Assembly: GCA_036015235.1 (NCBI GenBank)
Contig: CP107926.1
Span: 3,662,001-3,726,000, forward strand
Source: Streptomyces sp. NBC_00433
GTDB taxonomy: Bacteria > Actinomycetota > Actinomycetes > Streptomycetales > Streptomycetaceae
Length of the DNA: 64,000 nt
Direction of reading: 5' to 3'
This document shows positions 886 to 16,369 of the stretch, one piece after another. A program made the position numbers and the translations under genes. Under the pieces are notes generated by a model, which made no database searches, was not told the origin of the DNA, and saw nothing but the letters and a program-made list of their open reading frames with translations. Position 1 is the stretch's first letter; each line of letters begins with the position of its first letter.

Positions 886-1002
886 GTACCCCATTGTCCC
901 GCACGCGCCAAGTGTTCACCGCCAGGGGTGACCGCGGGTGTTCCTGCTCAGGGGCGCCCGTTCCCCGCGCGCTTCCTCACACCGGGGTCCGCGCCGCTCC
1001 CG

Positions 1003-1008
1003 TACCCT
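1003..1008 (+). promoter_or_regulatory. Leaderless-type -10 element (TACCCT)
   Basis: TACCCT fits the actinobacterial -10 consensus TANNNT and lies 7 nt before the ATG at 1016. Transcription would then start at or next to the start codon. No Shine-Dalgarno sequence precedes this ATG. The call is inferred from spacing only. Confidence 0.45.
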
Positions 1009-1015
1009 CGTCCTC

Positions 1016-1453
1016 ATGTCGCTCTACGCCGCTTACGCAGGCAACCTCGACGCGCGGCTGATGACCCGCCGCGCCCCGCACTCCCCGCTGCGCGGCACCG
1101 GCTGGCTGAACGGCTGGCGGCTGACCTTCGGCGGCGAGCAGATGGGCTGGGAGGGCGCGCTCGCGACCCTGGTCGAGGACCCGGTCAGCCAGGTCTTCGT
1201 GGGTCTGTACGACATCGCGCCGGTCGACGAGGAGTCGATGGACCGCTGGGAGGGCGTGCCGCTGCAGATCTACCGGCGTACGACCGTACGGGTGCACACC
1301 CTGGACGGCGACCTGGCGGCGTGGCTCTACGTGCTCAACGACTACGAGGGCGGGCTGCCCTCGGCCCGCTACCTCGGCGAGATCGCGGACGCCGCCGAGT
1401 CGGCCGGGGCGCCCCACGACTATGTGATGGGGCTGCGCAAGCGCCCCTGCTGA
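1016..1453 (+). CDS. Gamma-glutamylcyclotransferase (GGCT/AIG2)-like protein
   Basis: 145 residues. The start region SLYAAYAGNLDARLM resembles the YFAYGSN phosphate-binding loop of the gamma-glutamylcyclotransferase/AIG2 fold. The segment LPSARYLGEIADAAESAG near the C-terminus fits the conserved helix of that family. Members cleave gamma-glutamyl amines to 5-oxoproline, but the substrate here is unknown. There is no signal peptide, so it should be cytosolic. It lies between the divergent quinone reductase and the deoD operator. The ATG at 1016 was chosen because a TANNNT hexamer sits 7 nt before it; earlier in-frame codons have no ribosome binding site and encode low-complexity Arg/Pro sequence. 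Confidence 0.7.
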   Translation: MSLYAAYAGNLDARLMTRRAPHSPLRGTGWLNGWRLTFGGEQMGWEGALATLVEDPVSQVFVGLYDIAPVDEESMDRWEGVPLQIYRRTTVRVHTLDGDLAAWLYVLNDYEGGLPSARYLGEIADAAESAGAPHDYVMGLRKRPC

Positions 1454-1564
1454 CCTGCCGCGAACCCGCGTACGGCGCCGGTTTCCGGCCATCGCGTGGC
1501 CGGGGCGGCGAGGGCCGCCGACTGTCGGATGCCGCTATTTCCGGAGTAGTCCATGTCAGGCCGT

Positions 1565-1576
1565 CTACGCGCGTAG
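1565..1576. promoter_or_regulatory. Nucleoside-regulon operator (deoD copy)
   Basis: Perfect 12-bp palindrome CTACGCGCGTAG. It ends 12 bp before the putative -10 TACGCT (1589-1594), so it covers the -35 region of the deoD promoter, as expected for a repressor site. The same sequence recurs before deoC, add and nupA in this window. Confidence 0.8.
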
Positions 1577-1588
1577 GCCCTGACAGGT

Positions 1589-1594
1589 TACGCT
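1589..1594 (+). promoter_or_regulatory. Putative deoD -10 (TACGCT), leaderless
   Basis: TACGCT fits TANNNT and is 6 nt before the GTG at 1601. No ribosome binding site precedes that GTG, so a leaderless mRNA is likely. Confidence 0.5.
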
Positions 1595-1600
1595 CAGCGC

Positions 1601-2410
1601 GTGAACGCTTCTGTGAATCCCGACCCCTATGCCGCGGCCGACGCCGCCGCCGCCAGTCTGCGCGCGCTCACCGGCGCGCAGACGCACGACGTCGCCCTGG
1701 TCATGGGCTCGGGCTGGGTGCCCGCCGCCGACCAGCTCGGCACCGCGGACGCCGAGCTGCCGATCACCGAGCTGCCCGGTTTCCCGGCCCCCTCGGTGGC
1801 CGGCCACGCGGGCCGGGTCCGCTCGGTACGCGTCGGAGGCGTCCGTGCCCTGGTCTTCCTCGGCCGCACCCACCTCTACGAGGGACGGGGCGTCGCGAGC
1901 GTCGCGCACGCGGTGCGCACGTCGGTGGCCGCCGGCTGCAAGACGGTGATCCTCACCAACGGCTGCGGCGGCCTGCGCCCCGGCTACCGCCCCGGCCAGC
2001 CGGTGCTCATCAGCGACCACATCAACATGACGGCGACCTCGCCGATCGCCGGCGCGAACTTCGTCGACCTCACCGACCTCTACTCCCCCCGGCTGCGCGC
2101 CCTGTGCCGCGAGATCGACCCCAGCCTCGAAGAGGGCGTCTACGTCCAGCTCCCCGGCCCGCACTACGAGACGCCGGCGGAGATCGGGATGGTCCGCGCG
2201 ATAGGCGGCGACCTGGTCGGCATGTCCACCACGCTGGAGGCGATCGCCGCGCGCGAGGCGGGTGCGGAGGTGCTGGGCATCTCCCTGGTCACCAACCTTG
2301 CCGCCGGGATGACCGGGGAGCCGCTCAACCACGAGGAGGTTCTGGCGGCCGGTCACGAGTCCGCGACGCGCATGGGCACGCTTCTGGCCGGCTTGCTGGC
2401 CCGCCTGTGA
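1601..2410 (+). CDS. deoD: Purine nucleoside phosphorylase
   Basis: 269 residues, the size of trimeric (PNP/MTAP-family) phosphorylases. It converts purine (deoxy)nucleosides and phosphate to base and (deoxy)ribose-1-phosphate in the cytosol. Visible signatures are the phosphate loop VMGSGW, the glycine-rich [10 protein letters not shown], the base/sugar-binding [11 protein letters not shown] with its conserved Glu, [16 protein letters not shown], and TNLAAG with the purine-contacting Asn. It starts at a GTG with no leader, behind operator CTACGCGCGTAG. The next gene on the same strand is the PGM2-like phosphomutase, which can use its sugar-phosphate product, although a 0.7 kb repeat region separates them. 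The symbol follows actinobacterial usage; punA would also be acceptable. Confidence 0.93.
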
Positions 2411-2694
2411 CCTTGGCTCGCCCCACGCCGGGCGCCGGGCGCCCACGCCCTGCCCCTCGCGGTGCGCTGCCGGCCCGCGGCTGCCGTCATGGCTGGTCGC
2501 GCAGTTCCCCACCACTCCCTGCGGGGTGCCGTTACGGACTCCACAGTGCCGCTGCGTGGGTGGCTGGTCACGCAGTTCCCCACGCCCCCAGGTGGGTGTC
2601 TCTTGCGGTGCGTTGCTTGCCCGCGGCTGCCATCGTGGTTGCGCGCGCAGTTCCCCGCGCCCCTTTTGGCCTGCGTCCACCTGCGTCTGGCGTT

Positions 2695-2814
2695 TGCCCC
2701 TGCCAGGGGCTGGGCTCTGCGCAGAGGGCACGCGTTTTTCAGGGGCGCGTGGGAGTACCCCCAGGCGAAGCCCTGGGGGAGAACGGAGCGCCCCGCCGAA
2801 AAGGCGGGAAAGAT
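2695..2814. repeat. About 120-bp dispersed repeat, copy 1 (inverted copy at 31620-31740)
   Basis: The segment from TGCCCCTGCCAGGGGCTGGG to the CCCCGCC/GGCGGG hairpin matches the reverse complement of 31620-31740 with only a few differences by eye. A shorter piece recurs at about 42290-42343. Confidence 0.85.
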
Positions 2815-2826
2815 GCGAACGCCACC

Positions 2827-2922
2827 GCAAGTGGCACCCACCCAGGGGCGCGTGGGGGTACCCCCAGGCGAAGCCCTGGGGGAGAACCGCGCGACCAACC
2901 ACAGCGGACCGCAACTGTGAAC
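2827..2922 (+). repeat. 96-bp perfect direct repeat, copy A
   Basis: Base-for-base identical to 3004-3099 when the two are aligned by eye. It contains the CCCCCAGG hairpin and ends at AACTGTGAAC. The identity implies recent duplication or ongoing gene conversion. Confidence 0.9.
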
Positions 2923-3003
2923 GCAACAGGACGAGGCAGTACCCCAGGGGCGCGGGGAACTGCGCGACCAGCCACGATGGCGCCGCAGGCAAGCGACGCC
3001 ACA

Positions 3004-3099
3004 GCAAGTGGCACCCACCCAGGGGCGCGTGGGGGTACCCCCAGGCGAAGCCCTGGGGGAGAACCGCGCGACCAACCACAGCGGACCGCAACTGTGAAC
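3004..3099 (+). repeat. 96-bp perfect direct repeat, copy B
   Basis: Second copy of the unit at 2827-2922, ending 17 bp before the phosphomutase start. Confidence 0.9.
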
Positions 3100-3115
3100 C
3101 GGCATGGAGGCAACC

Positions 3116-4768
3116 GTGGAAGACCTGCTCGCTGAGGCTCAGGCGTGGGCAGCCGAGGACCCGGATCCGCAGACTCGGGCGGAGCTCGAGGACCTGCTGG
3201 TCCGGAAGGAAGTCGAGGAGTTGCGCGACAGGTTCGGCGGCACGCTGGAATTCGGCACCGCGGGCCTCCGCGGAGCGCTGGGCGCGGGCCCGAACCGGAT
3301 GAACCGGGCCGTCGTGATCCGCGCGGCCGCGGGCCTGGCGGCCCACCTGCGCGGCAACGGCGGCACCGCCGCGGTCATCGGCTACGACGCCCGCCACAAG
3401 TCGTACGACTTCGCCCGCGACACCGCCGCGGTGATGACGGGCGCGGGCCTGCGCGCGTATCTGCTCCCCCGGCCGCTGCCCACCCCGGTGCTGGCGTACG
3501 CGATCCGCCATCTCGGCGCCGACGCGGGCGTGATGGTGACCGCGAGCCACAACCCGCCGCAGGACAACGGCTACAAGGTCTACCTGGGCGACGGCTCCCA
3601 GATCGTGCCGCCGGCGGACGCGGAGATCGCCGCCGAGATCGCGGCGGTCGGCCCGCTCGCGACCGTAACCCTGGCCGCGGACGGCTGGGAAGTGCTCGGC
3701 GAGGACGTGGTCGAGGCATATCTCGGGCGCGCGGTCGGAGTCCTCGCGGAGGGCGGCGCGCGCGAACTGTCCACCGTCTACACGCCGATGCACGGCGTCG
3801 GCCTGGAAACCCTGACCGCGGCCTTCGCACGGGCGGGCTTCCCCGCGCCGGTGGCCGTCGCGGAACAGGCCGCGCCCGACCCGGACTTCCCCACCGTCGC
3901 CTTCCCCAACCCGGAGGAGCCGGGGGCGATGGACCTGGCCTTCAAGGCCGCGCGGGACGCGAACCCCGATCTGGTCATCGCCAACGACCCGGACGCCGAC
4001 CGGTGCGCGGTGGCTGTGCCCGACCCCGCCGCGGACGCGGGCTGGCGGATGCTGCGGGGCGACGAGTTGGGCGCGCTGCTGGCCGCGCACCTGGTGCGGC
4101 GGGGCGCCGCCGAGCCCGGCAGGGACGTCTTCGCGGCGAGCATCGTGTCGTCGTCGCTGCTGTCGAGGATCGCGGCCGCCGCCGGCCTCGGCTACGAGGA
4201 CACGCTGACCGGCTTCAAGTGGATCGCCCGTGTCCCGGGCCTGCGGTACGGCTACGAGGAGGCGCTCGGCTACTGCGTCGACCCGGCCGGGGTCAGGGAC
4301 AAGGACGGCGTCACGGCGGCGCTGCTGATCGCGGAGATGGCAGCCGAACTGCGGTCGGAGGGCCGTACGTTGGGCGATGTGCTGGACGAACTGGCCGTGG
4401 AGCACGGCCTGCACGCCACCGACCAGCTCTCGGCGCGGGTCGCCGACCTCTCCCTGATCAGCGACGCGATGGCGCGGCTGCGCGCCCACCCGCCGGCCGC
4501 GCTCGCGGGCCTGGACGTGGTGTCGGCCGAGGACCTCCAGCAGGGCGCGGGCGGCCTGCCCCCCACGGACGGCCTGCGCTACCGCCTCGCCGGGGACGCG
4601 GTGACCTCGGCCCGTGTCGTGGTCAGGCCGAGCGGCACGGAGCCGAAGATCAAGTGCTACCTGGAGGTCGTCGTCCCCGTGGGCACGGACGTGCCCGCCG
4701 CCCGCGCGCGGGCGGCGTCGCTGCTGGCCGCCCTCAAGCCCGACCTGGCCGCGGCGGCGGGCCTGTAG
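3116..4768 (+). CDS. Phosphohexomutase-family enzyme, PGM2-like; probable phosphopentomutase
   Basis: 550 residues, alpha-D-phosphohexomutase superfamily. Landmarks in order: phosphoserine loop TASHNPPQDNGYKVY near residue 140, the metal-binding DPDADRCAV near 295, the sugar loop GYEEALGYCV near 380, and the phosphate-binding RPSGTEPKIKCYLE near 505. The DPDADR variant and the length fit the PGM2/PmmB subfamily, whose human member acts mainly on pentose-1-phosphates. The genes around it make ribose- and deoxyribose-1-phosphate (deoD, deoA) and consume deoxyribose-5-phosphate (deoC). I therefore infer that this is the phosphopentomutase of the pathway, although automated annotation would usually say phosphomannomutase. 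GTG 3116 was chosen because GGAGG lies 5 nt upstream; the ATG at 3104 overlaps that ribosome binding site. Confidence 0.88.
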   Translation: MEDLLAEAQAWAAEDPDPQTRAELEDLLVRKEVEELRDRFGGTLEFGTAGLRGALGAGPNRMNRAVVIRAAAGLAAHLRGNGGTAAVIGYDARHKSYDFARDTAAVMTGAGLRAYLLPRPLPTPVLAYAIRHLGADAGVMVTASHNPPQDNGYKVYLGDGSQIVPPADAEIAAEIAAVGPLATVTLAADGWEVLGEDVVEAYLGRAVGVLAEGGARELSTVYTPMHGVGLETLTAAFARAGFPAPVAVAEQAAPDPDFPTVAFPNPEEPGAMDLAFKAARDANPDLVIANDPDADRCAVAVPDPAADAGWRMLRGDELGALLAAHLVRRGAAEPGRDVFAASIVSSSLLSRIAAAAGLGYEDTLTGFKWIARVPGLRYGYEEALGYCVDPAGVRDKDGVTAALLIAEMAAELRSEGRTLGDVLDELAVEHGLHATDQLSARVADLSLISDAMARLRAHPPAALAGLDVVSAEDLQQGAGGLPPTDGLRYRLAGDAVTSARVVVRPSGTEPKIKCYLEVVVPVGTDVPAARARAASLLAALKPDLAAAAGL

Positions 4769-4921: not shown

Positions 4922-5884
4922 CTAGCCGAAGCGGCCGTTGACGTAGTCCGCCGTGCGGGAGTCGACCGGGTCGCCGAAGACCTGCTCGGTGGCGCCGGTC
5001 TCGATGATGCGGCCGGGGGTGTCGTGGGTCGCCAGGAAGAACGCGCAGGACTGGGAGACCCGCTGGGCCTGCTGCATGTTGTGGGTGACGATGACGATCG
5101 TCAGGCGCCCGCGCAGCTCGGCGATGGTCTCCTCGACGCGCCGGGTGGAGGTCGGGTCGAGGGCCGAGCACGGCTCGTCCATCAGCAGCACGTCCGGTGA
5201 GACGGCCAGCGAGCGGGCGATGCAGAGCCTCTGCTGCTGGCCGCCGGAGAGCGATCCGCCCGGCGTGCTGAGCCGGTTGCGCACCTCGGTCCACAGGCCG
5301 GCCCTGATCAGGCTGGTCTCCACCAGGTGGTCGCGGTGGTCGCGGCTGACCTTGATCCCGGCGAGCTTCAGGCCGCTGGCGACATTGTCGTGGATCGACA
5401 TGCCGGGGAACGGGTTGGGCCGCTGGAAGACCATGCCGATCCGGCGCCGCACGTCGGCCGGGCGGCGGCCGGACGCGTAGATGTCGGCGCCGTCCAGCAG
5501 CACCTCACCGGCCAGTGCCGCGCCACGCACCATCTCGTGCATCCGGTTGAGGATGCGCAAGTAGGTGGACTTGCCGCAGCCCGAGGGTCCGATCAGGGCG
5601 GTGACCTGGCCGGCCTGCATGCTCAGCGAGACCCGGTCGAGCACCTTGTGGGTACCGAACCAGGCGGACACCGCCCGGCTCTCCAGCGCGTAGAGGTTCG
5701 CGTCCGCGCCCCCTTCAGGGCCGCCGGACCCGGCGGTGGCCGGCCCCGGCCGGGACGGCGGTACGGGGGGAAGCACGACGGTGTCGGCCGCGTCGGGGTC
5801 GGCGGTGGACCCACGCGCTCCGGCTCCCACCGGAACGGGCTCCGCCTCCTGCGCCTGCCCGCCGGCAGCGCTGGTGTCGGTCAT
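4922..5884 (-). CDS. pstB: Phosphate-type ABC transporter ATP-binding protein (PstB-like)
   Basis: 320 residues. After a Pro/Gly-rich N-terminal extension of about 65 residues, longer than in typical PstB, comes a complete ABC domain. It has Walker A GPSGCGKST, Q-loop FQRPNPFPG, signature LSGGQQQRL, Walker B LLMDEPCSALDP and switch-His IVTHNM, so it should be catalytically competent. AGGAG lies 5 nt before the ATG. It is the last gene of a minus-strand run of pstC-like, pstA-pstS-like and sortase-like genes and would energise that permease at the inner membrane face. The FQRPNPF motif is typical of PstB, but the accompanying binding proteins are unusual, so phosphate specificity is assumed, not shown. 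Confidence 0.9.
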   Translation of the reverse strand: MTDTSAAGGQAQEAEPVPVGAGARGSTADPDAADTVVLPPVPPSRPGPATAGSGGPEGGADANLYALESRAVSAWFGTHKVLDRVSLSMQAGQVTALIGPSGCGKSTYLRILNRMHEMVRGAALAGEVLLDGADIYASGRRPADVRRRIGMVFQRPNPFPGMSIHDNVASGLKLAGIKVSRDHRDHLVETSLIRAGLWTEVRNRLSTPGGSLSGGQQQRLCIARSLAVSPDVLLMDEPCSALDPTSTRRVEETIAELRGRLTIVIVTHNMQQAQRVSQSCAFFLATHDTPGRIIETGATEQVFGDPVDSRTADYVNGRFG

Positions 5885-5968: not shown

Positions 5969-6916
5969 TCAGTAGAGGTTGGGCAGCAGGGCGGCGGCGT
6001 TCTCGTAGACGCACCACACCAGCGCGGCCAGCACCGGCGCGAAGATCAGGTAAAGGGCGCCGCGCGGTATTCGCCGCCCGGCGGCCGCGACCAGCAGGAC
6101 CACCGCACCGAGCAGGCCCAGCGCCCAGAGCTGCACCGCGGGAAGGGCCGCGGTGTCGGAGGCGAGCGCGTGGTCGGTGTCGACGACGGCCGGACGGCCA
6201 CCGGGGTTCGGCCGGCCGGTCCCGTTCAGCCGGGCGCCGACGAGCAGCGTGCGGGTGGGTATCCAGTCGGAGTCACCGGTGGCCAGGACCAGCCGGTCGG
6301 AGGCCGTGTCGGCGATCGGGTGGGAGCTGTCGCCGAAGGCGTTGACGGTGTAGGTGGACTCGCCCTGGCTTGTGGTGGTGTGGATGACGTCGCCGGTCCG
6401 CAGGTCGGTCAGGTCGGCGAACGGGGCGCCGAAGGTGGCGTGCCTCCCGAAGATCACACTGACGCCCTGCTGCCCCGGCAGCGCGGTGTCCCTGCGGTGG
6501 CCGGGGCCGCGCATCAGGTCGCGGCCGGTGGTCCCCTCGACGACCACGGCCTGGTGCAGTCCGATCGCCGGGATGTCGATGACGGCGACCGGTGCTCCGT
6601 CGGCGGCGGTGCCGACCGGGGCGACCGCGTTGGCGAGCTGGTGGGCGAAGGTTTTGTGCGCGGTGGACTGGAAGTGCCCCTCCTGGAGCCCCGAGGCGGC
6701 GAACAGGTAGCCGACGAAGCCCATCAGCAGCAGGCCGAGCAGGAGGCACGACAGGGCGGCCGTCACCGCTCCTGTCATCCGCAGGCCGAACCCGCGGGGC
6801 GAAGCGGCGGGGTCCGCCGCGCGGGGACGGCCGGGCGGCCCGGCGGGCAGGGGTGCGGGCCCGGACGTCCGGCCGCCGCCGGAGTCCGCCGCTTTCGCGA
6901 GAGTCGGCGTGCTCAT
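5969..6916 (-). CDS. Sortase-fold membrane protein lacking the catalytic Cys (pseudo-sortase)
   Basis: 315 residues. It has one N-terminal transmembrane helix (about residues 48-75), a sortase beta-barrel (about 100-240) and two C-terminal transmembrane helices. The barrel aligns with class E sortases through VVEGTTGRDLMRGPGH, TALPGQQG and FGAPFADLTDL. At the catalytic positions, AGHRTTYG is replaced by FGRHATFG, putting Arg where the His normally lies, and the TLxTC segment reads LVLATGDSDW, with Gly (codon at 6275-6277) in place of Cys. The Arg region (PTRTLLVGARL) is retained. It therefore cannot be a conventional transpeptidase, and no LPxTG or LAxTG sorting signal is visible in the neighbouring surface proteins. 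It may be a structural or scaffold partner of the Pst-like complex. The ATG at 6916 has AGAGGA 9 nt upstream. Confidence 0.8.
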   Translation of the reverse strand: MSTPTLAKAADSGGGRTSGPAPLPAGPPGRPRAADPAASPRGFGLRMTGAVTAALSCLLLGLLLMGFVGYLFAASGLQEGHFQSTAHKTFAHQLANAVAPVGTAADGAPVAVIDIPAIGLHQAVVVEGTTGRDLMRGPGHRRDTALPGQQGVSVIFGRHATFGAPFADLTDLRTGDVIHTTTSQGESTYTVNAFGDSSHPIADTASDRLVLATGDSDWIPTRTLLVGARLNGTGRPNPGGRPAVVDTDHALASDTAALPAVQLWALGLLGAVVLLVAAAGRRIPRGALYLIFAPVLAALVWCVYENAAALLPNLY

Positions 6917-7022: not shown

Positions 7023-8789
7023 TCATCCGCCCGGTCGCGGCCCGGGACCGGCGGCCGCCGAGCGGCGACGGCCGCGCAGGTAGTAGCCGAGTACCGGCGG
7101 CACGGTCACCACGGCGAGCAGTTCGAGGGCGGTCAGCGAGCTGAGCAGCCAGTCGTCGTTCCGGCCGGCCAGCGCGACCACGTCGGCCGGTACGGCAGAT
7201 CCGCCGCCGCCCGCGGCGCCGCCCGAGCTGTCGGAGCCCGCGGTGGACACGACCTGGCCGGTCTGCGGGTCGATGACCTTGCCGGGGCCGCTGCCGCCGG
7301 AGGCACTGCCGCCGGAGGCGCTGCCGCCCGCGCTTCCGCCGCCTGTGGCGGTGGTGCCCGCGCTGCCGGACGACCCGCCGCCGCTCCCACCCGAGGTGCC
7401 GCCGCCGGACGAGCCGCTGCCGCCGGACGACCCGGCACCGGCCGTGACCGGCCTGCCGTGCTTCACGGTGCAGCTGAGCGGCGCGCCGGCCTTGTCGCAG
7501 GGGCTGGGCTGCGGGGCGTCGGTGAGGACGGTGAGCTTGCCGGCCGAGTTGAACGTCGGGTTGGCGCAGTTCGACAGCGTGTTGGGGTCGATACCACTGG
7601 CATTGCCCGGGATGTGGGAGACCTGGAGCAGGCCGCCCTTGACCAGCCCGCGCGGGATCGGCGAGTAGCCGAGCTGGCCTGCCTCGCCCTGCCCCGCGCA
7701 GAGGATGAAGCCGATGTAGCGACTGAGCGCCGACCCCTTCTTGGTGTCGAAGCGCGGAGGTATGCCCCGCTTCCCGCCCGTGCGCGGCACGATCAGGTAG
7801 CTGTAGCTGGAGATCGGGTACGAACGCGGGTCGCCCATGGTGTAGACGCCGTCGAGGTTCTGCTGGAGGAAGTTCGGGTCGCTGGGCGAGGTCTTGTCGT
7901 CCACCCCGCGGATCCTGGCGGCGGTCAGCGCCACGGCCACGTTGGACGGGCCGGGGAGGGTGTAGTAGCCGGCCGGGTTGAGGACCTTGACGACCGGCCA
8001 GTTGACCCGCTTGGCGTACGCGTACTCGTCGTAGCCGATCGTGCCCTCGCCGGTCTGCGACTGGACGTAGCTGGCCACGACGTCGGAGCCGTTCTGCGCG
8101 ACCATCCGCCCGCTGGGCGGGTAGAACTCGGTGTAGTCGCCGCAGGTGCTGCTCAGGACGGACCGGCAGTAGGCGTCCCACTGGGCTTTGTGGGTGTGCT
8201 CCATGTAGCGGGTGAACTGCGCGGTCGCGCCGGAACCGTCGGACCGCACGACCGGGGTGATCGGGGTGTGCGGCAGGTTGGCGCCGTAGTCGTGCACGAT
8301 CGCCGGGTCGTTCCAGTAGGTGATCTTGCCCGTGAATATCTTCACCAGCGTGTCGGTGGACAGTCGCAGGTTGGTGACCTGCTTGCCGGCGACCGTGAGG
8401 TGGTACATGAAGGCGGTGCCGCCTGCCGTCACCGGCACGTAGGAGAAGTCGTAGACCGGGTTCTCGGCGCCGTTGTACTGGCCGCCGGTGTTGCCCGCGT
8501 CGCCCGCGGTGCGGAAGGGCACGTCGGACGCGGTGAAGTCGTCCTGGCCCAGCGCCCACTGGGCGCGGCCGGCGGCCGAGCCGACCGCCGAGAAGTTGAT
8601 GTTGATGCCCTGCGGCCCGACGTCCTGCCGCCACTGGTCGAGTGCCGGGCCGGCCCAGCTGGACCCGTCGCCGTTGAGCGAGGTGGCCGCGTCGGCCGTG
8701 CCGCTCTGCACCCCGAGCAGCGCCAGCGCGGCGGTCAGTACGGCGAGCAGCCGGGGCCAACGGCGGTACGCCCTGGGCGTTGTGGACAT
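7023..8789 (-). CDS. Internal in-frame start: PstS-like, stalked, membrane-anchored binding protein
   Basis: Alternative or additional product of the same frame, 588 residues. ATG 8789 is preceded by GGAGGAG at ideal spacing, and the sequence from it looks like a secreted-protein N-terminus: basic STTPRAYRRWPR, a hydrophobic core, then SGTADA as a cleavage site. The mature domain keeps most PstS ligand positions: a loop with VGSAAGR, SDVPF, and RSDGSGAT, matching the R...SGT phosphate-contact motif. The last ~150 residues are a Gly/Ser stalk (SGGSGSSGGG and similar) and a C-terminal transmembrane helix with a basic tail, so it would display the binding domain above the membrane. Whether it is made separately, as part of the PstA fusion, or both cannot be decided from sequence. 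Confidence 0.7.
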   Translation of the reverse strand: MSTTPRAYRRWPRLLAVLTAALALLGVQSGTADAATSLNGDGSSWAGPALDQWRQDVGPQGININFSAVGSAAGRAQWALGQDDFTASDVPFRTAGDAGNTGGQYNGAENPVYDFSYVPVTAGGTAFMYHLTVAGKQVTNLRLSTDTLVKIFTGKITYWNDPAIVHDYGANLPHTPITPVVRSDGSGATAQFTRYMEHTHKAQWDAYCRSVLSSTCGDYTEFYPPSGRMVAQNGSDVVASYVQSQTGEGTIGYDEYAYAKRVNWPVVKVLNPAGYYTLPGPSNVAVALTAARIRGVDDKTSPSDPNFLQQNLDGVYTMGDPRSYPISSYSYLIVPRTGGKRGIPPRFDTKKGSALSRYIGFILCAGQGEAGQLGYSPIPRGLVKGGLLQVSHIPGNASGIDPNTLSNCANPTFNSAGKLTVLTDAPQPSPCDKAGAPLSCTVKHGRPVTAGAGSSGGSGSSGGGTSGGSGGGSSGSAGTTATGGGSAGGSASGGSASGGSGPGKVIDPQTGQVVSTAGSDSSGGAAGGGGSAVPADVVALAGRNDDWLLSSLTALELLAVVTVPPVLGYYLRGRRRSAAAGPGPRPGG

Positions 8790-10061
8790 GGAGGCTCCTC
8801 CGGGCAGCGGGATGCCGAGGGTCGGAAGGACAGGGTCCGGCGGCCGGAGGGCGGCCGGCGACCGGCCCCCCTTGCGCAGGTCAGGGCCGCCGCTGAGTTC
8901 ACGGCTGATCCGGCGCCGCCGGCGCCGGCTGAGGTCGCCCGGCCGGCGTCCGCCGAGGATCCGGGCGGTGACGAACAGCACCAGGACGACGGCCATCAGC
9001 GTCAGGGCCGCCGCGAAGGCCCGCGCCACCATGTCGGGCGCCGGGTACTTGACGTAGTTCCAGATGTACAGCGGCAGGCTGACCTGGTGGTCGGAGAACG
9101 GGTCGGCGTTCATCCCCGAGGTGAAGCCCGAGGTCAGCAGCACCGGCGAGGTCTCCCCCACACCGCGTGCCATGCCGAGCACCACGGCGGTCACCAGGCC
9201 GGGCCTGGCGGTGGGCAGCACCACGTTCAGCACGGTGCGCCACTGGCTGCCGCCCAGTGCGTACGACGCCTCCCGCAGGGTGCCCGGGACCAGTCGGATG
9301 ACGACCTCGGCGGCGCGGGTCACGATCGGCATCATCATCACGGTCAGCGCCAGCGAGGCGGCGAAGCCGCTCTTCTGCAGGCCGAGGGTGAGGATGACCA
9401 CGCCGAGGATGAACAGGCCGGCCACGATGGACGGCAGCGCCGTCATCGCCTCCACCACGGTGCGGACCGGGCGGGCCAGCCGGCCGCCGATCTCCGACAT
9501 GAAGACCGCGGCGGCGATGCCCAGCGGGACGGCGAACAGCGTGGCCAGGCCGAGCTGTTCCAGCGAACCGACGATGGCGTTGAGCGCACCGCCCGAGGTG
9601 ATCGGTGAGAGTGTGGCGGTGGACTGCATGGTCTGGGTGAAGAAGTTCAGGTGCGAGGCGGCGTGCTCGCCGCGGAAGAGCACGTAGCCGACCTGGTCGG
9701 CGATCAGCGCCACCACCAGCAGTCCCGCGGTAGCCACCGTGGTCTGGATCAGCCGGTCGCGGGCGGTCCTGGCGTCCCACATCAGGCGGGCGACACCCCA
9801 GGCCATGGCCAGGAAGTTCAGGTACCAGCAGAGCAGGAAGCCGAAGGCGCCGCTGAAGGGCAGCAGCCGTTCGTAGAGCAGCCAGGTGAAGGCCAGGGAG
9901 CCGCCGGCCGCGCCGATCAGGGCGCCGGTGCCGCCGTCACCCGCGCCGCCGAGCCGGACCCGGACCTCGGGGGCGGTCGCCGGGTCGGGCTGCGGGCGGG
10001 AGGCGGCCCCGCGCCCGGTCTCCTGCGGCGCTTTCCGCGCCGCGGGCTCCAACGTGGTCAT
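7023..10061 (-). CDS. pstA: PstA-like permease in frame with a PstS-like surface binding protein (1012-residue open frame)
   Basis: One uninterrupted frame with two modules. Residues 1-370 are a PstA-type permease with extra N-terminal membrane helices and the EAA loop EASYALGGSQWRTVLNVVLP. An Arg-rich cytoplasmic linker (RRPGDLSRRRRRR and following) leads to about residue 424. There a second Met with its own GGAGGAG starts a signal peptide, a PstS-like domain (WAGPALDQW, VGSAAGRAQW, VRSDGSGATAQF), a Gly/Ser-rich stalk and a C-terminal helix ending YYLRGRRR. No stop codon separates the modules, so ribosomes translating pstA must continue unless an error hides a stop. The topology is coherent: cytoplasmic linker, then membrane helix, then external domain. 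The permease start ATG 10061 has AGGAG 9 nt upstream. Confidence 0.75.
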   Translation of the reverse strand: MTTLEPAARKAPQETGRGAASRPQPDPATAPEVRVRLGGAGDGGTGALIGAAGGSLAFTWLLYERLLPFSGAFGFLLCWYLNFLAMAWGVARLMWDARTARDRLIQTTVATAGLLVVALIADQVGYVLFRGEHAASHLNFFTQTMQSTATLSPITSGGALNAIVGSLEQLGLATLFAVPLGIAAAVFMSEIGGRLARPVRTVVEAMTALPSIVAGLFILGVVILTLGLQKSGFAASLALTVMMMPIVTRAAEVVIRLVPGTLREASYALGGSQWRTVLNVVLPTARPGLVTAVVLGMARGVGETSPVLLTSGFTSGMNADPFSDHQVSLPLYIWNYVKYPAPDMVARAFAAALTLMAVVLVLFVTARILGGRRPGDLSRRRRRRISRELSGGPDLRKGGRSPAALRPPDPVLPTLGIPLPGGASMSTTPRAYRRWPRLLAVLTAALALLGVQSGTADAATSLNGDGSSWAGPALDQWRQDVGPQGININFSAVGSAAGRAQWALGQDDFTASDVPFRTAGDAGNTGGQYNGAENPVYDFSYVPVTAGGTAFMYHLTVAGKQVTNLRLSTDTLVKIFTGKITYWNDPAIVHDYGANLPHTPITPVVRSDGSGATAQFTRYMEHTHKAQWDAYCRSVLSSTCGDYTEFYPPSGRMVAQNGSDVVASYVQSQTGEGTIGYDEYAYAKRVNWPVVKVLNPAGYYTLPGPSNVAVALTAARIRGVDDKTSPSDPNFLQQNLDGVYTMGDPRSYPISSYSYLIVPRTGGKRGIPPRFDTKKGSALSRYIGFILCAGQGEAGQLGYSPIPRGLVKGGLLQVSHIPGNASGIDPNTLSNCANPTFNSAGKLTVLTDAPQPSPCDKAGAPLSCTVKHGRPVTAGAGSSGGSGSSGGGTSGGSGGGSSGSAGTTATGGGSAGGSASGGSASGGSGPGKVIDPQTGQVVSTAGSDSSGGAAGGGGSAVPADVVALAGRNDDWLLSSLTALELLAVVTVPPVLGYYLRGRRRSAAAGPGPRPGG

Positions 10062-10189: not shown

Positions 10190-11230
10190 TCAGTCCGCCG
10201 TCGCCGCGCCGGACCTGGAGCGTCCGATGATCACCGCGGCCCCCACGTTGACCAGCAGCGTCAGCATGAAGAGCACCAGTCCCGCGGCCATCAGCGCGGA
10301 CAGCGACAGCGGGTCGGACTCGCCGAAGCGCAGCGCGATCAACGCGGAGATCGAGTTGGCCCCGTTCTCCAGAACGTGCGAGGTGACGTGGAAGGAGGGC
10401 GAGATGATCAGCGCGACGGCGATGGTCTCGCCCATCGCCCGGCCGAAGCCCAGCATCACCGCACCGATCACACCGCCCCGCCCGAAGGGCAGCACCACGC
10501 TGCGGACCATCCCCCAGCGGGTGCTGCCCAGGGCGTAGGCGCCCTCCCGTTCGCCCTGCGGGGCCTGCGAGAAGACCTCCCGGCTGAGCGAGGTCATGAT
10601 GGGGATGATCATCAGCGAGACCACCGTCCCCGCGATGAACGCGGACGAGGTGTACGAGGTGTCGATGTCGCCCGTGCGCACCTTGAGGAAGGGGACGGCC
10701 CCGCCCGGGTGCATGGTCAGCCAGCGGACGAAGCCGACGATGCGCGGCTGGAGGAAGAACAGCCCCCACAGCCCGTAGACGATGCTGGGGATCGCCGCCA
10801 TCAGGTCCACCAGCGAGACCAGCGTGGAGCGGATGCGCACCGGGGCGTACTCGGAGATGTACAGCGCGGCGGCCAGCGAGACGGGGACGGCGATCACCAG
10901 CGCCACCAGGGCGATGATGATGCCGTCGGGGAGTACGGCGGCAATGCCGAAGACGTGCGACTGCGTCTGCCACTTCGACTCGGTGAAGAAGGACCAGCCG
11001 GCCACCCGCAGGGCTTTGAGGCCCCGGTAGAACAGGAAGAACGCGATGAGCCCCATGATCGCGAAGACCGAGAGACCCGCGCCCCGCAGCACCCACCGGA
11101 AGACCTGGTCGCCGGGCGCGACCGGTGCCGAGATGCTGCGCGGCCGGTCCGCCTCGCGCCAGTCGCCGCCGGGCTCGCCGACTCCTTCTGTGACGTCGGA
11201 CGGCTCGGGGTCCGGGGCGGCGAATGCCAT
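10190..11230 (-). CDS. pstC: Phosphate-type ABC transporter permease (PstC-like)
   Basis: 346 residues with about six membrane helices after a soluble acidic N-terminus of about 45 residues. The large external loop with FFTESKWQTQSHVFG and the EAA loop EGAYALGSTRWGMVRSVVLP followed by GFGRAMGETIAVAL are typical of PstC. It would pair with the PstA-like permease encoded 128 bp downstream. ATG 11230 was chosen because GAGGAG lies about 10 nt upstream and the earlier frame is low-complexity. The 221-bp gap to the upstream 854-residue gene contains a hairpin and twin repeats, so pstC probably has its own promoter. Confidence 0.9.
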   Translation of the reverse strand: MAFAAPDPEPSDVTEGVGEPGGDWREADRPRSISAPVAPGDQVFRWVLRGAGLSVFAIMGLIAFFLFYRGLKALRVAGWSFFTESKWQTQSHVFGIAAVLPDGIIIALVALVIAVPVSLAAALYISEYAPVRIRSTLVSLVDLMAAIPSIVYGLWGLFFLQPRIVGFVRWLTMHPGGAVPFLKVRTGDIDTSYTSSAFIAGTVVSLMIIPIMTSLSREVFSQAPQGEREGAYALGSTRWGMVRSVVLPFGRGGVIGAVMLGFGRAMGETIAVALIISPSFHVTSHVLENGANSISALIALRFGESDPLSLSALMAAGLVLFMLTLLVNVGAAVIIGRSRSGAATAD

Positions 11231-11270
11231 GATCGACTGCACTCCTCGGCTGGTTTCTGCGACGGGCGTC

Positions 11271-11310
11271 CGCCCACCGGGCGGTGCTGCGGCGCCCACC
11301 GGGCGGTGCT
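11271..11310. repeat. Twin 18-bp repeats in the pstC leader
   Basis: CGCCCACCGGGCGGTGCT occurs at 11271-11288 and 11293-11310, a 22-bp period of two helical turns. Each copy contains inverted arms (CGCCC/GGGCG, or CACCG/CGGTG read on the other strand). Two in-phase dyads just before a gene look like a cooperative operator or a structured leader. Confidence 0.6.
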
Positions 11311-11400
11311 CAGCGGTGGCGACAGATACATTCGCGCGGCTACGGGAGACCGATGACGGTCCTGCGGGTGAACGCGGCCACAACAGGGGCGGGCGCGGGC

Positions 11401-11451: not shown

Positions 11452-14016
11452 TCAGCGGCCCGGCCTGAGGCGGCCGAGCCCGCGCCGGGCCGCGGCGGAG
11501 GCGTCACGCGACCGCCGCCGCAGGGTCTCCCCGGCAGGGGTGCCGGTCAGGACGAGCACCGCCGGGGCGCCGAGCAGCAGGACCGCACCCGCGATCAGCA
11601 GCGCGGGCAGCACGAACCGCGCCCCGCCGGCCCGGTCCGGGTCGAGCGCTCCCGACGCGGCGGGTTGAGCGTCTTCCAGCGGCCCGCCGTTCCTGGCTGT
11701 CGGCAATCCGGCACCGCCGGACGCCGTCACGCCCCCGGCCGCGGTGCCGCCCGCGCCGCCGGATGCCGAGCCGCCGGTGGTCCCGCCACCGAGGCCGCCG
11801 GACGCCGAGCCGCCGCCGCCCGCACCGCCGGACGCGCCGCCGCCCGAACCTCCGCCCGCGGAACCCCCCGTGCCGGTCGGCCCGACCTGGTTGCCGGGCA
11901 GTGCGCCGTCCTGGCTCTGCACATGTCCGACGGCGGCCTGCGCCTGCTTGTGCTGGGAGGCTGTCAGGTCGAGGAATCCGGCCGCGAGTTGTCCCGGCTG
12001 GAAGCCGTACACCTGCCCGGCGGACGGGTCGGTGGCGCGGGAGACGAACTGGCCGATCCTGTCCGCCTTCTTCTGCGGCAGCCCCTTGGTCGGCAGCATC
12101 GCGTACTGCACCGCCGCCAGCGGGTAGGCGGCCGCGTCCCTGCTGAAATCGGTACGGGGCTTCCCGTACGGCAGTGTCTGGGTCCCGGTCCTGGCGTCCA
12201 CCGGCATGTCGTCGACGGCGGCCTGCAGACCGTCCGCGGTCGGGGCGACGAACGAGCCCGCCGGATTCTGCAGTTCGGCCTCAGGCAGCGAGAACGTCTT
12301 GGCCTGCCCGGAGTCCACGATGCCGAGCACCACCCGCTGTCCGGTCAGCTGGGCCTCGCAGTGCCCGTCCTCCCGTGCGCCGCCCGCGCGGAAGGTCACG
12401 GTGTTGCAACTGGGCTGGGCGTTGAGTACATGCCGTGCCACCTGGCCGAGACCGCCGATCAGCGGGTTCCACTCCAGCTGCTTGCGGTAGGACACACCCA
12501 GGCCGCCGTTGTCGTACTTCCCGGTCGCGTCCTGCGGGACGAACGAGTCGATCGGGTAACCGGGGTAGGCCGGCCGCAGGTAGAAGGTGTCCAGGTGCAT
12601 GCCCCACGGGTCGGGCATCCCTTGGAGGAACTGCTCCGCCTTGGGGTCCGCCGCGATCCAGGAGGTCAGCTGCTGCACCAGGTCGGTGGTGCCGCCCACG
12701 ACGACGGGCAGCGAGTACGGGTTGCCGCAGGCCGGCCAGTTCGGCCCGTTCTGCGGGTCGCTCGGGTTCAGCTGGACGAACTCCGGGTCGTCGAAGAGGC
12801 AGGCGGGGTTGCCGTCCACCGAGGCGAACGCGGGATCCCCCGGCTTGACGCCCTGGTCGCCGACGTAGGACTGGGTGAGCAGCTTGGCCAGCAGCCTGGC
12901 GTTGAGGCGCATGTGCGTGATCTGCGCGCCGGTCTTGTCGTCGTCCACCACGAAGACCACCGAGATCCCGGTGTTCGCCAGCGGCGCGTAGACGTACGGG
13001 CGCGGCGCGTCACCGGTGTCGGGGAGCGCGGTGAGCGCGACGTCGCTGCCCAGCTTCTGCAGGAACTGCGCCCTGGCCTGCGGCTCGCCGCCGCTGGGGG
13101 TGTACTGGACGCTGAGCGGCGAGGAACCGTTGCAGAAGCCGGAACGCCACTGCTGCATCGCCCGGTTGGCCATCTCCAGGCCTTGGACGGTGAAGTCGGC
13201 CGCGGTCGCCCTGCAGTCCGTCGGCGTGGTCGCGAACGTCAGCGGCACGGTCACCCGGTTCGCCCAGGCGCACGACTCGCCGTCGGCGTAGCCGGTCTGG
13301 AAGTCCTGCCCGGTGATGACGCTGTCGGTCGCCTCCACGTCGGTGTCGAAGGTGTGGTCGTCGCACTTGGCGGCACTGCCGGCGGCGTCCACGTCCCATG
13401 CGTCGCCGCCGTAGTTGGCCTCCACCACGAGCGAGCAGGGGTGGTGGGGGTCGCAGCCCAGTGTCTGGCTCTGCTCGGCGGTCCACACCTCTATATCGGC
13501 CGAGCCGGTGCCGTCGGCGTGCGTGAAGGACACCTGTGCGTTCGTCGGGAACTCCGGCGCGGTGCTGCCCGCCCCGGGCTGCGTCTGGTCGAAGCCCTTG
13601 GCGGCGTCGGCGTTGTACAGGCTGCTGCCGTAGCAGTCGGTGATCTTCGGTGTGGTCCCCCGGCACTGGTAGACCCGTACAGGGAACGCGTGCGCGGCGT
13701 CGTTGGGCCGGATGAACATCGGGTCGTTGGTGGTCGGCGTGAACCCGCTCCATGAGACGTGCACGACCTGGTCGGTGAGGTTGGTGGTCTGGCTCACCGT
13801 GACCGAGCCCGGCTGCCCCTTGGTCTGGGTGTCCGGGTCCCATCGCTCGGGGCCCGGCACCGTCGTCCCGGTGGCGGCCTGCGCGGTCGGGGCCGTGTGC
13901 GCGCCCGGCGGCAGCGCGGCGAGGAACCCCAGCAGCAGTACGGCGCACGGCACCATCGCAAGGACTCTGCGAAACCTCCCCCCGGTGCGGGGCGTGCGAT
14001 GCGCTCGCTGTTCCAT
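11452..14016 (-). CDS. Large stalked surface protein with PstS-like binding domain
   Basis: 854 residues. A signal peptide (residues 1-48, hydrophobic core LAMVPCAVLLLGFLAAL, cut near AQA) is followed by a beta-rich Ig-like region (about 60-260: SVTVSQTTNLTDQVVHVSW and several Cys). A periplasmic-binding-protein-like region spans about 270-690, then a Gly/Ser/Ala stalk (about 700-800) and a C-terminal helix FVLPALLIAGAVLLLGAPAV with a 30-residue basic tail. In the binding region the usual R..SGT motif is replaced by VVVGGTTDLVQQLT and the SDAP-type Asp motif is not recognisable, so the ligand is uncertain. It would stand above the membrane beside the Pst-like transporter. ATG 14016 has GAAGGGA 9 nt upstream, the last of several similar motifs. 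Confidence 0.72.
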   Translation of the reverse strand: MEQRAHRTPRTGGRFRRVLAMVPCAVLLLGFLAALPPGAHTAPTAQAATGTTVPGPERWDPDTQTKGQPGSVTVSQTTNLTDQVVHVSWSGFTPTTNDPMFIRPNDAAHAFPVRVYQCRGTTPKITDCYGSSLYNADAAKGFDQTQPGAGSTAPEFPTNAQVSFTHADGTGSADIEVWTAEQSQTLGCDPHHPCSLVVEANYGGDAWDVDAAGSAAKCDDHTFDTDVEATDSVITGQDFQTGYADGESCAWANRVTVPLTFATTPTDCRATAADFTVQGLEMANRAMQQWRSGFCNGSSPLSVQYTPSGGEPQARAQFLQKLGSDVALTALPDTGDAPRPYVYAPLANTGISVVFVVDDDKTGAQITHMRLNARLLAKLLTQSYVGDQGVKPGDPAFASVDGNPACLFDDPEFVQLNPSDPQNGPNWPACGNPYSLPVVVGGTTDLVQQLTSWIAADPKAEQFLQGMPDPWGMHLDTFYLRPAYPGYPIDSFVPQDATGKYDNGGLGVSYRKQLEWNPLIGGLGQVARHVLNAQPSCNTVTFRAGGAREDGHCEAQLTGQRVVLGIVDSGQAKTFSLPEAELQNPAGSFVAPTADGLQAAVDDMPVDARTGTQTLPYGKPRTDFSRDAAAYPLAAVQYAMLPTKGLPQKKADRIGQFVSRATDPSAGQVYGFQPGQLAAGFLDLTASQHKQAQAAVGHVQSQDGALPGNQVGPTGTGGSAGGGSGGGASGGAGGGGSASGGLGGGTTGGSASGGAGGTAAGGVTASGGAGLPTARNGGPLEDAQPAASGALDPDRAGGARFVLPALLIAGAVLLLGAPAVLVLTGTPAGETLRRRSRDASAAARRGLGRLRPGR

Positions 14017-14250: not shown

Positions 14251-14835
14251 TCAGCTCGCAGGGGTGAAGGTGAGCACCAGTGAGCCGACCGAGTCGCCGG
14301 CCGCGAAGAAGCCGGTCTTCAGCTTGGTGTTGAGGAAGTCGGCGCCCGCCGGGTCCAGGTCCACCTCGGAGGCGTTGAAGACCGCGCCCGTGCCGACCTT
14401 GTCCACCCGGATGTCGCCCGTCGGCACGAACAGCGGCACGGCGGTGGTCCCGCCCGTGGGGACGCCGGTGATCTGGTCGTTGTAGAGGTCGTAGGAGAGC
14501 TGGGAGAAAGTCACCGAGCGCAGCGTCTTCGCGTCCAGCACCAGCAGCGCGCCGCCGAACTGGGCGGTCCCGTAGTAGCCGGTCAGGTTGGCGTCGCCGC
14601 CGGTGACCGGGAAGGTGGCGGAGACACCGGTCGTACCGGAGTAGGACGCGGTCGCCGAGGGCAGCGGCACGGCGATGATGCCCTGGGCGGCGGCGTTCAC
14701 CAGGAAGGTGTTGCTCTCCGAGATGACCGCGCTGCCGGAGGCCGGCGTCGCAGCGGACGCCTGGCCGGCGAAGCCGAGGGCGAGCAGGGAGGCCGCGGCA
14801 AGTGCGAGCGACGTGGCGTTGCGCAGGTTCTTCAT
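14251..14835 (-). CDS. Small secreted protein of unknown function
   Basis: 194 residues. A clear Sec signal peptide (KNLRNATSLALAAASLLALGF, cut after GQASA) precedes a mature chain of about 165 residues. The chain is rich in Thr/Val/Gly/Ala with no Cys and looks all-beta, ending GSLVLTFTPAS. I do not recognise the family. AGGAGA lies close before ATG 14835. It sits between the secreted PstS-like gene and the stalked 854-residue gene on the same strand, so it is probably part of the surface complex. There is no membrane anchor or sorting motif. Confidence 0.7.
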   Translation of the reverse strand: MKNLRNATSLALAAASLLALGFAGQASAATPASGSAVISESNTFLVNAAAQGIIAVPLPSATASYSGTTGVSATFPVTGGDANLTGYYGTAQFGGALLVLDAKTLRSVTFSQLSYDLYNDQITGVPTGGTTAVPLFVPTGDIRVDKVGTGAVFNASEVDLDPAGADFLNTKLKTGFFAAGDSVGSLVLTFTPAS

Positions 14836-14953: not shown

Positions 14954-16006
14954 TTACGGGTGGGTGATCGCGCCGCACAGGGCCAGCGGGAGGAACCCGT
15001 AGCTCTTGAGGTCGGCCTGCGCGGTGGCGTTCTTGCAGATCCAGCCGGTCGAGCTGAAGATCGCCTTCAGCGCGGTGGCGTGCGCGTCACCGGCGGTCCA
15101 GTCGGCGTCGCGCACGACGTTGTAGACGCTCCTGCCGTAGGCGCTGGTGGCGAACGACGAGGTGATCACGTGCGTGGTGGGGTCGACCGGCACGATGATC
15201 GGCGTCTGGCTGGTGCCGCCGATGTTACGGACGGTCAGCGGGCCCTGGACGTCGTTGCCGGAGCCGTGGCCGCCGTAGACCTGGCCGATGTAGTGGGCGA
15301 CGGAGTAGGGGACCACCGCGTTGTTGTCGTGGAGGAGCACGTTGCTGCCCTCGTTCTCCTCGACGGTGGTGTTCACGCACGACGGCTGCGGGTCGGCGTT
15401 GGACAGGCCGAGCACGTTCATGAAGAACGAGCGGGTACCCGAGCCGTTCTGCGGCAGGAAGGGCTTGATCGTGGCGTTCGGCGCCACCCAGGTGCCACCG
15501 ACGTCCGTGATCTGGTTCCAGTTGGTGATGCTGCAGTTGTAGATGCCCTTGAGGTCCGCGGTGCTCAGGTTCGGCGGGGCGTTGCCACCGGACTGCGCGG
15601 CCCAGGTCACCGCGTCCTTGGCGTAGGCGATGAAGTCGTCGGTGGTCAGCTGGCCGGCGGCCGGGCCGCCCGAGGAGCGGGCGAAGTCCACAGTGGTCTT
15701 CGTGGTGTTCTGCAGCGCCGTGACACCCGCACCGGAGCCGTTCGGACGCGGGTTGAGCGAGGTCGCACCGGTCTTGGTGGTGATCGGGGAGGTGCCCGTC
15801 GCGTCCCAGCTGTAGAGCTTGGGGGTGCCGGTGTAGTCGGCGGAGAACTTGTTGAAGAGGGCCTGGGTGGTGTCCGAACCCACACCGACGATGTCGGTGG
15901 CAGCGGGGGTGACGCCGGCGGGGGGGTCGGCGGAGGCGGGGCCGGCCAGCGTCACGAGGGAGACGAGCGCGGCGGCGGAGAGCAGAGCGACAGCAGTCTT
16001 ACGCAT
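14954..16006 (-). CDS. Secreted PstS-family substrate-binding protein
   Basis: 350 residues. A signal peptide (RKTAVALLSAAALVSLVTLAG, cut after PASA) is followed by a PBP-like domain beginning TDIVGVGSDTTQALFNKFSADY. Motifs at the usual anion-binding positions are NGSGAGV and NGSGTRSFF, but the Arg before SGT is Gln (PQNGSGT) and the SDAP-type Asp is replaced (DFARSSGG). There is no lipobox, stalk or anchor, so it should be released or only loosely held, unlike its two paralogues downstream. GGAGGAAA lies 6 nt before the ATG, within the small dyad TTCCTCCAGGAGGAA (16014-16028). It is the first gene of the minus-strand cluster. I see no clear direct-repeat PHO box upstream. Confidence 0.85.
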   Translation of the reverse strand: MRKTAVALLSAAALVSLVTLAGPASADPPAGVTPAATDIVGVGSDTTQALFNKFSADYTGTPKLYSWDATGTSPITTKTGATSLNPRPNGSGAGVTALQNTTKTTVDFARSSGGPAAGQLTTDDFIAYAKDAVTWAAQSGGNAPPNLSTADLKGIYNCSITNWNQITDVGGTWVAPNATIKPFLPQNGSGTRSFFMNVLGLSNADPQPSCVNTTVEENEGSNVLLHDNNAVVPYSVAHYIGQVYGGHGSGNDVQGPLTVRNIGGTSQTPIIVPVDPTTHVITSSFATSAYGRSVYNVVRDADWTAGDAHATALKAIFSSTGWICKNATAQADLKSYGFLPLALCGAITHP

Positions 16007-16369
16007 GGTGCGTTTCCTCCAGGAGGAAGTGGCTTGCATGTCGGACCGGATCCTTGTCGGACCCGGTGCGGGAGCCACACCCGAACGGCTCCCAGCGGCA
16101 CCGAGCTTCACCGACGGCCGACCGGGCGCCAAGTACCGTGCGTCGCGGCCGAGTCGGCCCGCCCGGTGCGCGGGCCGACCGCCCGTAGCGGCGTTTGCGC
16201 TGCTCGCAGGCCGTACGCCGGCTGCTTGGGGAGCGCCCTCGCGAGCAGCGCACGGCACCGTACGTGCTTCTCGCGGTGGGGCTTTGAGCCAGTTCGGGAT
16301 ACCTCTCGTTCACCGTCGCTGTGACCCTCGCCGTCGCTGTCGCCGCACCCGTCGCCCTCGCCGTCGCCC
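16007..16369. other. Intergenic region upstream of the Pst-like cluster
   Basis: No gene is supported in these 363 bp. They contain the leader and promoter area of the secreted PstS-like gene and, at about 16310-16375, a run of degenerate hexamers of the type GTCGCT/CTCGCC. One isolated GTTCACC heptamer (around 16309) resembles half of a PHO-box unit but has no good second repeat. Confidence 0.5.

Follow-up and report, generated by a model that had tools for sequence, protein, structure and literature searches.

We found that the protein encoded on the minus strand at 5969..6916 of the window (the whole 64,000-nucleotide stretch of DNA analysed here) belongs to a family of pseudosortases, in which the catalytic residues have been lost while the fold and the open frame are kept across the clade. 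Because none of the 138 aligned family rows carries the catalytic triad and the family occupies a separate branch in phylogenetic trees, the window protein is a family-wide pseudoenzyme and not the outcome of a mutation in one strain. We posit that catalysis was most likely lost a single time and that the protein has been kept in an actinobacterial Pst cluster as a non-catalytic membrane adaptor, a reading to which we give about an even chance.

The gene is open from an ATG and specifies 315 residues, or 349 if an upstream GTG is the start. Its product displays an N-terminal membrane helix, a sortase barrel (about residues 104-232) and a C-terminal two-helix membrane hairpin (residues 257-308; 5993..6148, minus strand) with the end LLPNLY. 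The Pfam Sortase profile PF04203 matches at 52.6 bits (cut-off 26.6) over profile positions 1-83 of 125, and the best NCBIfam model is that for class E sortases, which nevertheless scores 71.2 bits, below its cut-off of 160. An AlphaFold model built from an 81-row alignment (pLDDT 90, pTM 0.81) comprises a helix at 48-95, barrel strands between 109 and 230 and helices at 257-280 and 285-308; the last two bear out the pair of extra C-terminal membrane helices noticed in an earlier sequence-only reading of this DNA. In Foldseek and VIA-align comparisons the barrel falls among solved sortases, with the best VIA-align match to 4d70 (SrtD; Z 18.8, 2.6 Å over 150 residues) and a further one to 5go6 (SrtE; Z 17.2, 1.9 Å over 124), and the window protein thus has the sortase barrel fold.

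An hhalign comparison of the family alignment (A2, 81 rows) with 32 class E sortases (A3) gave a probability of 99 and an E-value of 2e-18, and paired Arg158 (6443..6445, minus strand) with the catalytic His, Gly214 (6275..6277, minus strand) with the catalytic Cys and Thr223 (6248..6250, minus strand) with the catalytic Arg, residues that are His251, Cys320 and Arg329 in SrtE1 (according to an excerpt of PMC5148588). The Gly and the Arg at the Cys and His positions are as the sequence-only reading had them; its further statement that the Arg strand is intact is wrong, since Thr223 stands at the catalytic Arg position and Arg222 one residue earlier. The 138 rows combine 105 initial ones with 33 from a pattern-free search, and as the same gene apparently entered twice in several cases (L110/L009, L129/L018, L137/L011, L062/L204, L115/L234, to judge by contigs of equal length), they represent fewer than 138 independent genes. 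The His position is occupied by Arg in 132 rows and Lys in 6 (Arg 103 and Lys 2 in the first 105; Arg 29 and Lys 4 in the pattern-free 33), and the Cys position by Ala in 105, Ser in 23, Thr in 5, Gly in 3 and Val in 2 (Ala 85, Ser 12, Thr 4, Gly 3 and Val 1 in the first set; Ala 20, Ser 11, Thr 1 and Val 1 in the second). The catalytic-Arg position lacks Arg in all 138 rows, one of which has a gap there. No homologue from this context was found with the catalytic Cys that would have marked the change as a strain-specific mutation: with the catalytic His or Cys in 0 of the 138 rows, such a mutation is ruled out. The combination of an intact frame, lost catalysis and a non-enzymatic role that had been proposed for this protein holds, as a trait of the whole family and not of this member alone; the role itself may be the scaffolding or the ligand sensing suggested at the time.

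We consider it very improbable that these proteins are still catalytic with another nucleophile or a shifted His. Ser or Thr takes the Cys position in 28 of the 138 rows, and in the target His159 directly follows Arg158; yet His stands at position 159 in 1 of 138 rows, the target itself, Ala or Gly fills the Cys position in 108, and the Arg is lost too. The displaced His pointed out earlier is therefore real in the target but not a feature of the family. In the MAFFT alignment the canonical Cys falls one column away from residue 214; hhalign puts it on 214, and the class F motif LITCxG of L003-L006, compared by eye, also sets it there; no row has a Cys in the residue-214 column or in the neighbouring MAFFT column. 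An alternative alignment that would place a Cys correctly is likewise ruled out, as any barrel Cys occurs in just 1 of the 105 rows and sits there in another strand.

The same excerpt of PMC5148588 ascribes to Tyr229 of SrtE1 a role in specificity, namely in LAxTG recognition. Its column, located by the distance of 22 from the catalytic His, holds Tyr in 32/32 class E rows, and Arg (86) or Leu (19) in the 105 pseudosortases; the b6/b7 stretch shrinks from 32 residues in class E to 19-24 in the pseudosortases. With the triad absent, the Tyr replaced and b6/b7 shortened, catalysis is gone and so, to judge by the sequence, is the known substrate site. The usual groove for the peptide thus seems to have been taken apart, which counts against the usual LAxTG recognition and thus against an adaptor role. 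The original assignment to class E stands in that this is the nearest class, but the score lies far under the class E cut-off, and the class-E Tyr and long b6/b7 loop are gone from the family.

Outside the catalytic site, G139, H140, T144, P147, G148, Q149 and F166 are fixed in 105/105 rows, so that the barrel itself seems to be under selection, although residues 139-147 lie within a stretch used as a search pattern: the loci were found with two peptide patterns (GH[RL]R[DN]TP[LMF]P and [YF][TLM]P[SHR]G[VI][LV]RVD), and this selection partly accounts for the invariance of residues 140-147 and the RVD strand among these rows. A rival explanation, which we regard as improbable, is that the former active site has become the basic pocket of an anion receptor or sensor, lined by Arg158, Arg141 and the Arg-rich b6/b7 turn. 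Such a receptor would recognise phosphate, polyphosphate or else a wall polymer or lipid that bears phosphate, and would signal to, or feed, the importer. Arg or Lys at position 158 in 138/138 rows and Arg141 in 86 of the 105 speak for a pocket, as does the predicted lining of the sortase groove by both positions, judged by homology; but the pocket is not common to all members, since Arg141 is present in only 18 and Arg142 in 24 of the 33 pattern-free rows.

A protein search detected members in 23 of the 35 congeneric genomes, at 26 places including the window's own, and a scan of named genome contigs yielded 200 relatives; the analysis covered the best 80 of these. These extend across Streptomyces, Kitasatospora, Actinacidiphila, Frankia, Nocardioides, Cryobacterium, Microbacterium, Phytohabitans, Dactylosporangium, Acidimicrobiales and others. 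When the target was searched without patterns against 148 genomes of the class, 104 gave matches with E-values of 1e-6 or lower; some of the matches were long, mostly reaching residue 313-314, and the others stopped near residue 193. Those read comprised 33 family members, all without the triad, and 16 Cys-bearing sortases (L230-L232, L240-L252). The plasmid collection contributed a single partial match, in an unannotated stretch of Nonomuraea gerenzanensis. Full-length triad-less relatives in so many families of Actinomycetota refute the notion of a decaying or strain-specifically mutated sortase gene, the chance of which we take to be negligible, even though the congeneric copy L028 loses its frame before the hairpin. 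That copy, whose break may reflect sequencing error or decay, still reads GRQ and TATGG, and was excluded from alignment A1, and thus from the 105 rows, on account of the break.

In a careful tree of 103 rows (58 of the 138 pseudosortases and 45 Cys-bearing sortases), the 58 pseudosortases lie on one side of a branch (UFBoot 100, SH-aLRT 87); a barrel-only tree with the catalytic and Tyr columns removed and class F left out (136 columns, 41 Cys-bearing rows) gave support of 99/77, a rough figure given the few columns and an unsettled bootstrap. A single loss of catalysis fits these trees best and is the most likely history. The target belongs with L058-L061 and L063 to a group of six (support 100/94), mostly from Streptosporangiaceae and Trebonia, apart from the other congeneric copies. 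A possible ancestral form is seen in L180 and L199, Cys-bearing sortases that belong to other classes of the phylum and share the layout of the pseudosortases, with a similar C-terminal hairpin ending in LPGNY and MPPNY, respectively; their own catalytic motifs are intact (GHRTTYG, TTC), the same search detected no Pst genes within 15-20 kb around them, and a quick tree does not put them firmly beside the pseudosortases. On both, profile A2 of the pseudosortases outscores profile A3 of class E (144 vs 90 and 106 vs 89 bits); as many Cys-bearing sortases of the phylum in which no hairpin was seen have the same preference, the hairpin is their sole distinctive link to the pseudosortases. Hairpin-containing, Cys-bearing sortases away from pst genes, at L253:9058-9915 and L254:4411-5346, are possible models of the ancestor.

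The pseudosortase gene is embedded in a minus-strand cluster with the order PstS-like protein, small secreted protein, degenerate PstS, PstC, a frame with PstA and PstS, pseudosortase and PstB. The leading PstS-like secreted protein (14954..16258; PBP_like_2, 54.1 bits) has its probable real start at 16006 (MRKTAV). It is followed by the small secreted protein of 194 residues (14251..14835), a frame read by hand from the DNA and devoid of Pfam or NCBIfam matches, the 854-residue degenerate PstS (11452..14016), and PstC (10190..11383; TIGR02138, 262 bits, cut-off 196.45). PstA and a PstS with a C-terminal hydrophobic stretch then share one frame (7023..10061; PstA by TIGR00974, 206.6 bits, cut-off 193.45), and the PstB ATPase is the next gene downstream of the pseudosortase (4922..5884; TIGR00972). 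PstC and PstA thus exceed their curated cut-offs, while PstB (331.2 bits, slightly below its cut-off of 343.2) and PstS (156.9 of 205 bits) do not, the best models for the latter two remaining PstB-type and PstS-type. The phosphate loop of the operon PstS is intact (R166, D168, G169, S170 and G171 in 25/25 aligned rows, window included). The PstA/PstS frame of 1012 residues contains a Shine-Dalgarno-like GGAGGA followed by an ATG at 8789, and may be a fused permease-receptor, a case of dual start or the result of a lost stop codon. As another PstC/PstA pair is found elsewhere in the genome, the cluster is a second system there. Pho-box-like repeats in the window number 10 against 17 expected, none above chance.

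This association recurs in the relatives, for which the named-locus counts rest on the best 80 of 200. PstB comes after the pseudosortase in 25/25 congeneric loci and is encoded on the same strand within 4 kb downstream in 61 of the 68 named loci with 2.5 kb of DNA, being missing from that interval in 7. At least one of PstA, PstB and PstC is present in 77 of the 80 named loci, and two of the three loci without any exceed 11 kb. Where 9.8 kb of upstream DNA is available (57 loci), PstC is found in 41, PstA in 49, PstS in 54 and a further PstS-like protein in 47, some PstC and PstA genes possibly falling outside the fetched DNA. In a control set of Cys-bearing sortases, PstA/B/C was seen at 0 of 66 loci (flanks up to 1.5 kb, several shorter); among the 50 pseudosortase loci with flanks of that size, 35 had such genes (25/25 congeneric, 10/25 from the wider class). 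In several distant lineages (L077, L082, L109, L123) a PstS-like gene intervenes between pseudosortase and PstB, an arrangement that short flanks miss. Since the same dead version recurs in a Pst setting across Actinomycetota, it probably performs a new, non-enzymatic job in phosphate uptake.

One form of that job would be as an assembly or structural subunit of the permease, with the hairpin working at PstCA/PstB and the dead barrel serving as a spacer or stabiliser. We judge this rather unlikely: the proximity to PstB and the fixed LLPN end favour it (P312 and N313 in 105/105 rows; P in 31 and N in 29 of the 33 pattern-free rows, two of which have gaps), but the barrel has fixed residues of its own outside the catalytic site, even if the fixity at 139-147 is partly due to the choice of rows. 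In the 1.5 Mb, 97% complete genome G322 (locus L255), the only PstC/PstA pair is that of the pseudosortase cluster, which also features PstB, an intact-length PstS (TIGR00975 at cut-off), a histidine kinase, a response regulator and an adjoining PhoU (171.8 bits, cut-off 130). The pseudosortase and its PstS-fold neighbour lie there on the strand opposite to pstCAB, and this neighbour is related to the degenerate PstS (28% over 134 residues). At L255:10107-12233, the N-terminal part of a relative of the large PstS matches the neocarzinostatin family (32.1 bits, cut-off 25).

The degenerate PstS of the window is modelled with a PstS fold at residues 270-704 (Z 32.0 to 8ods, 2.6 Å over 306; whole-model pLDDT 72) and a probable C-terminal membrane helix, in a region where the confidence of the model is low. 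When aligned by hhalign with the intact PstS of the operon, its phosphate-binding loop is replaced, with RSDGSG becoming VGGTTD, and the family consensus of the degenerate PstS also lacks the R-x-D-G-S-G loop that the intact PstS keeps. A relative of this protein occurs upstream of the pseudosortase in all 57 loci with 9.8 kb of upstream DNA. Across the 35 congeneric genomes, 22 have both pseudosortase and degenerate PstS, 12 have neither and one is discordant; the Fisher p-value of 1.6e-8 is too small because the genomes are related. The discordant genome (G032) has the pseudosortase alone; its 12 kb contig stops short of the place expected for the degenerate PstS.

Proteins with sorting signals are a less regular companion. 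By a strict rule, no L[AP]xTG signal occurs in the window, which therefore lacks the nearby substrate of a class E sortase; the earlier statement that adjacent proteins carry no sorting signals is thus right for the window but not for the family, in which 24 of the 80 relatives' loci encode, on the strand of the pseudosortase, a protein with an L[AP]xTG signal, in 23 of them directly upstream of the pseudosortase. Counted as proteins, 25 lie on the operon strand and 1 on the other, and for 23 of those 25 the end lies no more than 250 bases from the matched start of the pseudosortase. The remaining 56 loci have none by the strict rule; six of the 80 offer too little upstream DNA for a judgement. 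The upstream proteins end in LAxTG in many Streptomyces and in LPxTG in Micromonosporaceae, Acidimicrobiaceae and MAGs; degenerate ends outside the strict rule (MASTG, IPVTG) occur as well, and in Nocardioides and Streptosporangiaceae, and likewise in the target's cluster, the end is a plain membrane helix. The degenerate, probably tethered PstS is a more constant partner of the pseudosortase than the LAxTG protein.

We infer the adaptor role from this combination of features. The positive-inside rule predicts that the barrel lies outside the cell and that the hairpin has its Arg-rich turn on the inner side. The barrel would bind a partner peptide or domain outside the cell and the hairpin would dock in the membrane, so that the adaptor could keep tethered PstS-type surface proteins next to the PstCA permease and, in many relatives, also hold LAxTG/LPxTG surface proteins there. 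The constancy of the degenerate PstS is the reason for naming PstS-type proteins as the principal clients. Apart from the altered groove, the lack of a sorting-signal protein in the window, the loci without PstB or without any of PstA/B/C and the lack of a Pho-box excess count against an adaptor. More tentatively, and short of an even chance, we suggest that a sortase was converted once, early in Actinomycetota, to serve an ABC phosphate importer as a non-enzymatic subunit, with a binding site rebuilt from the former catalytic pocket. Together with the loop-less PstS, it would form a surface capture complex around PstSCAB; this complex may bind polymers that carry phosphate or keep receptors close to the permease.

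Relative to the class E sortases (SrtE1 of S. coelicolor; SrtE of S. avermitilis and T. fusca), the pseudosortases share the barrel fold and the N-terminal membrane helix but are without the His, Cys and Arg and the class-E Tyr, have a shorter b6/b7 loop, and add the C-terminal membrane hairpin and the Pst context. With the PstSCAB importer, the cluster shares PstC and PstA over their cut-offs and a PstS family with the RxDGSG phosphate loop, whereas the pseudosortase, the degenerate PstS and further secreted PstS-like proteins are additions, joined in relatives' clusters by LAxTG/LPxTG proteins. Retention of the fold, loss of catalytic residues and persistence in a wide clade are shared with pseudoenzymes in general. 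Sortases are regarded as enzymes, and a best-match annotation would label these genes class E sortases. Among the literature matches listed (title and opening of the abstract), none reports a pseudosortase or places a sortase-like gene in a pst cluster, and a 2023 review of pseudoenzymes (PMC10211241) is listed with 0 matches for 'sortase'. If our reading is true, this would be the first pseudosortase family among the literature matches listed, and a well-studied importer of soil bacteria would gain an unexpected component. Such a family makes testable what a sortase fold that is unable to cut can do. Phosphate governs antibiotic production in soil bacteria.

Beyond PstB, three genes at 938-4768 of the window correspond, by a reading of open frames, to those at the congeneric locus L034, and the two clusters apparently occupy the same chromosomal place; the names of these flanking genes (mutase, phosphorylase and cyclotransferase) come from that reading alone. 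The gene order of the window differs from that of L034, and its pseudosortase groups with Streptosporangiaceae copies; replacement in place of the operon at this L034-like position is possible.
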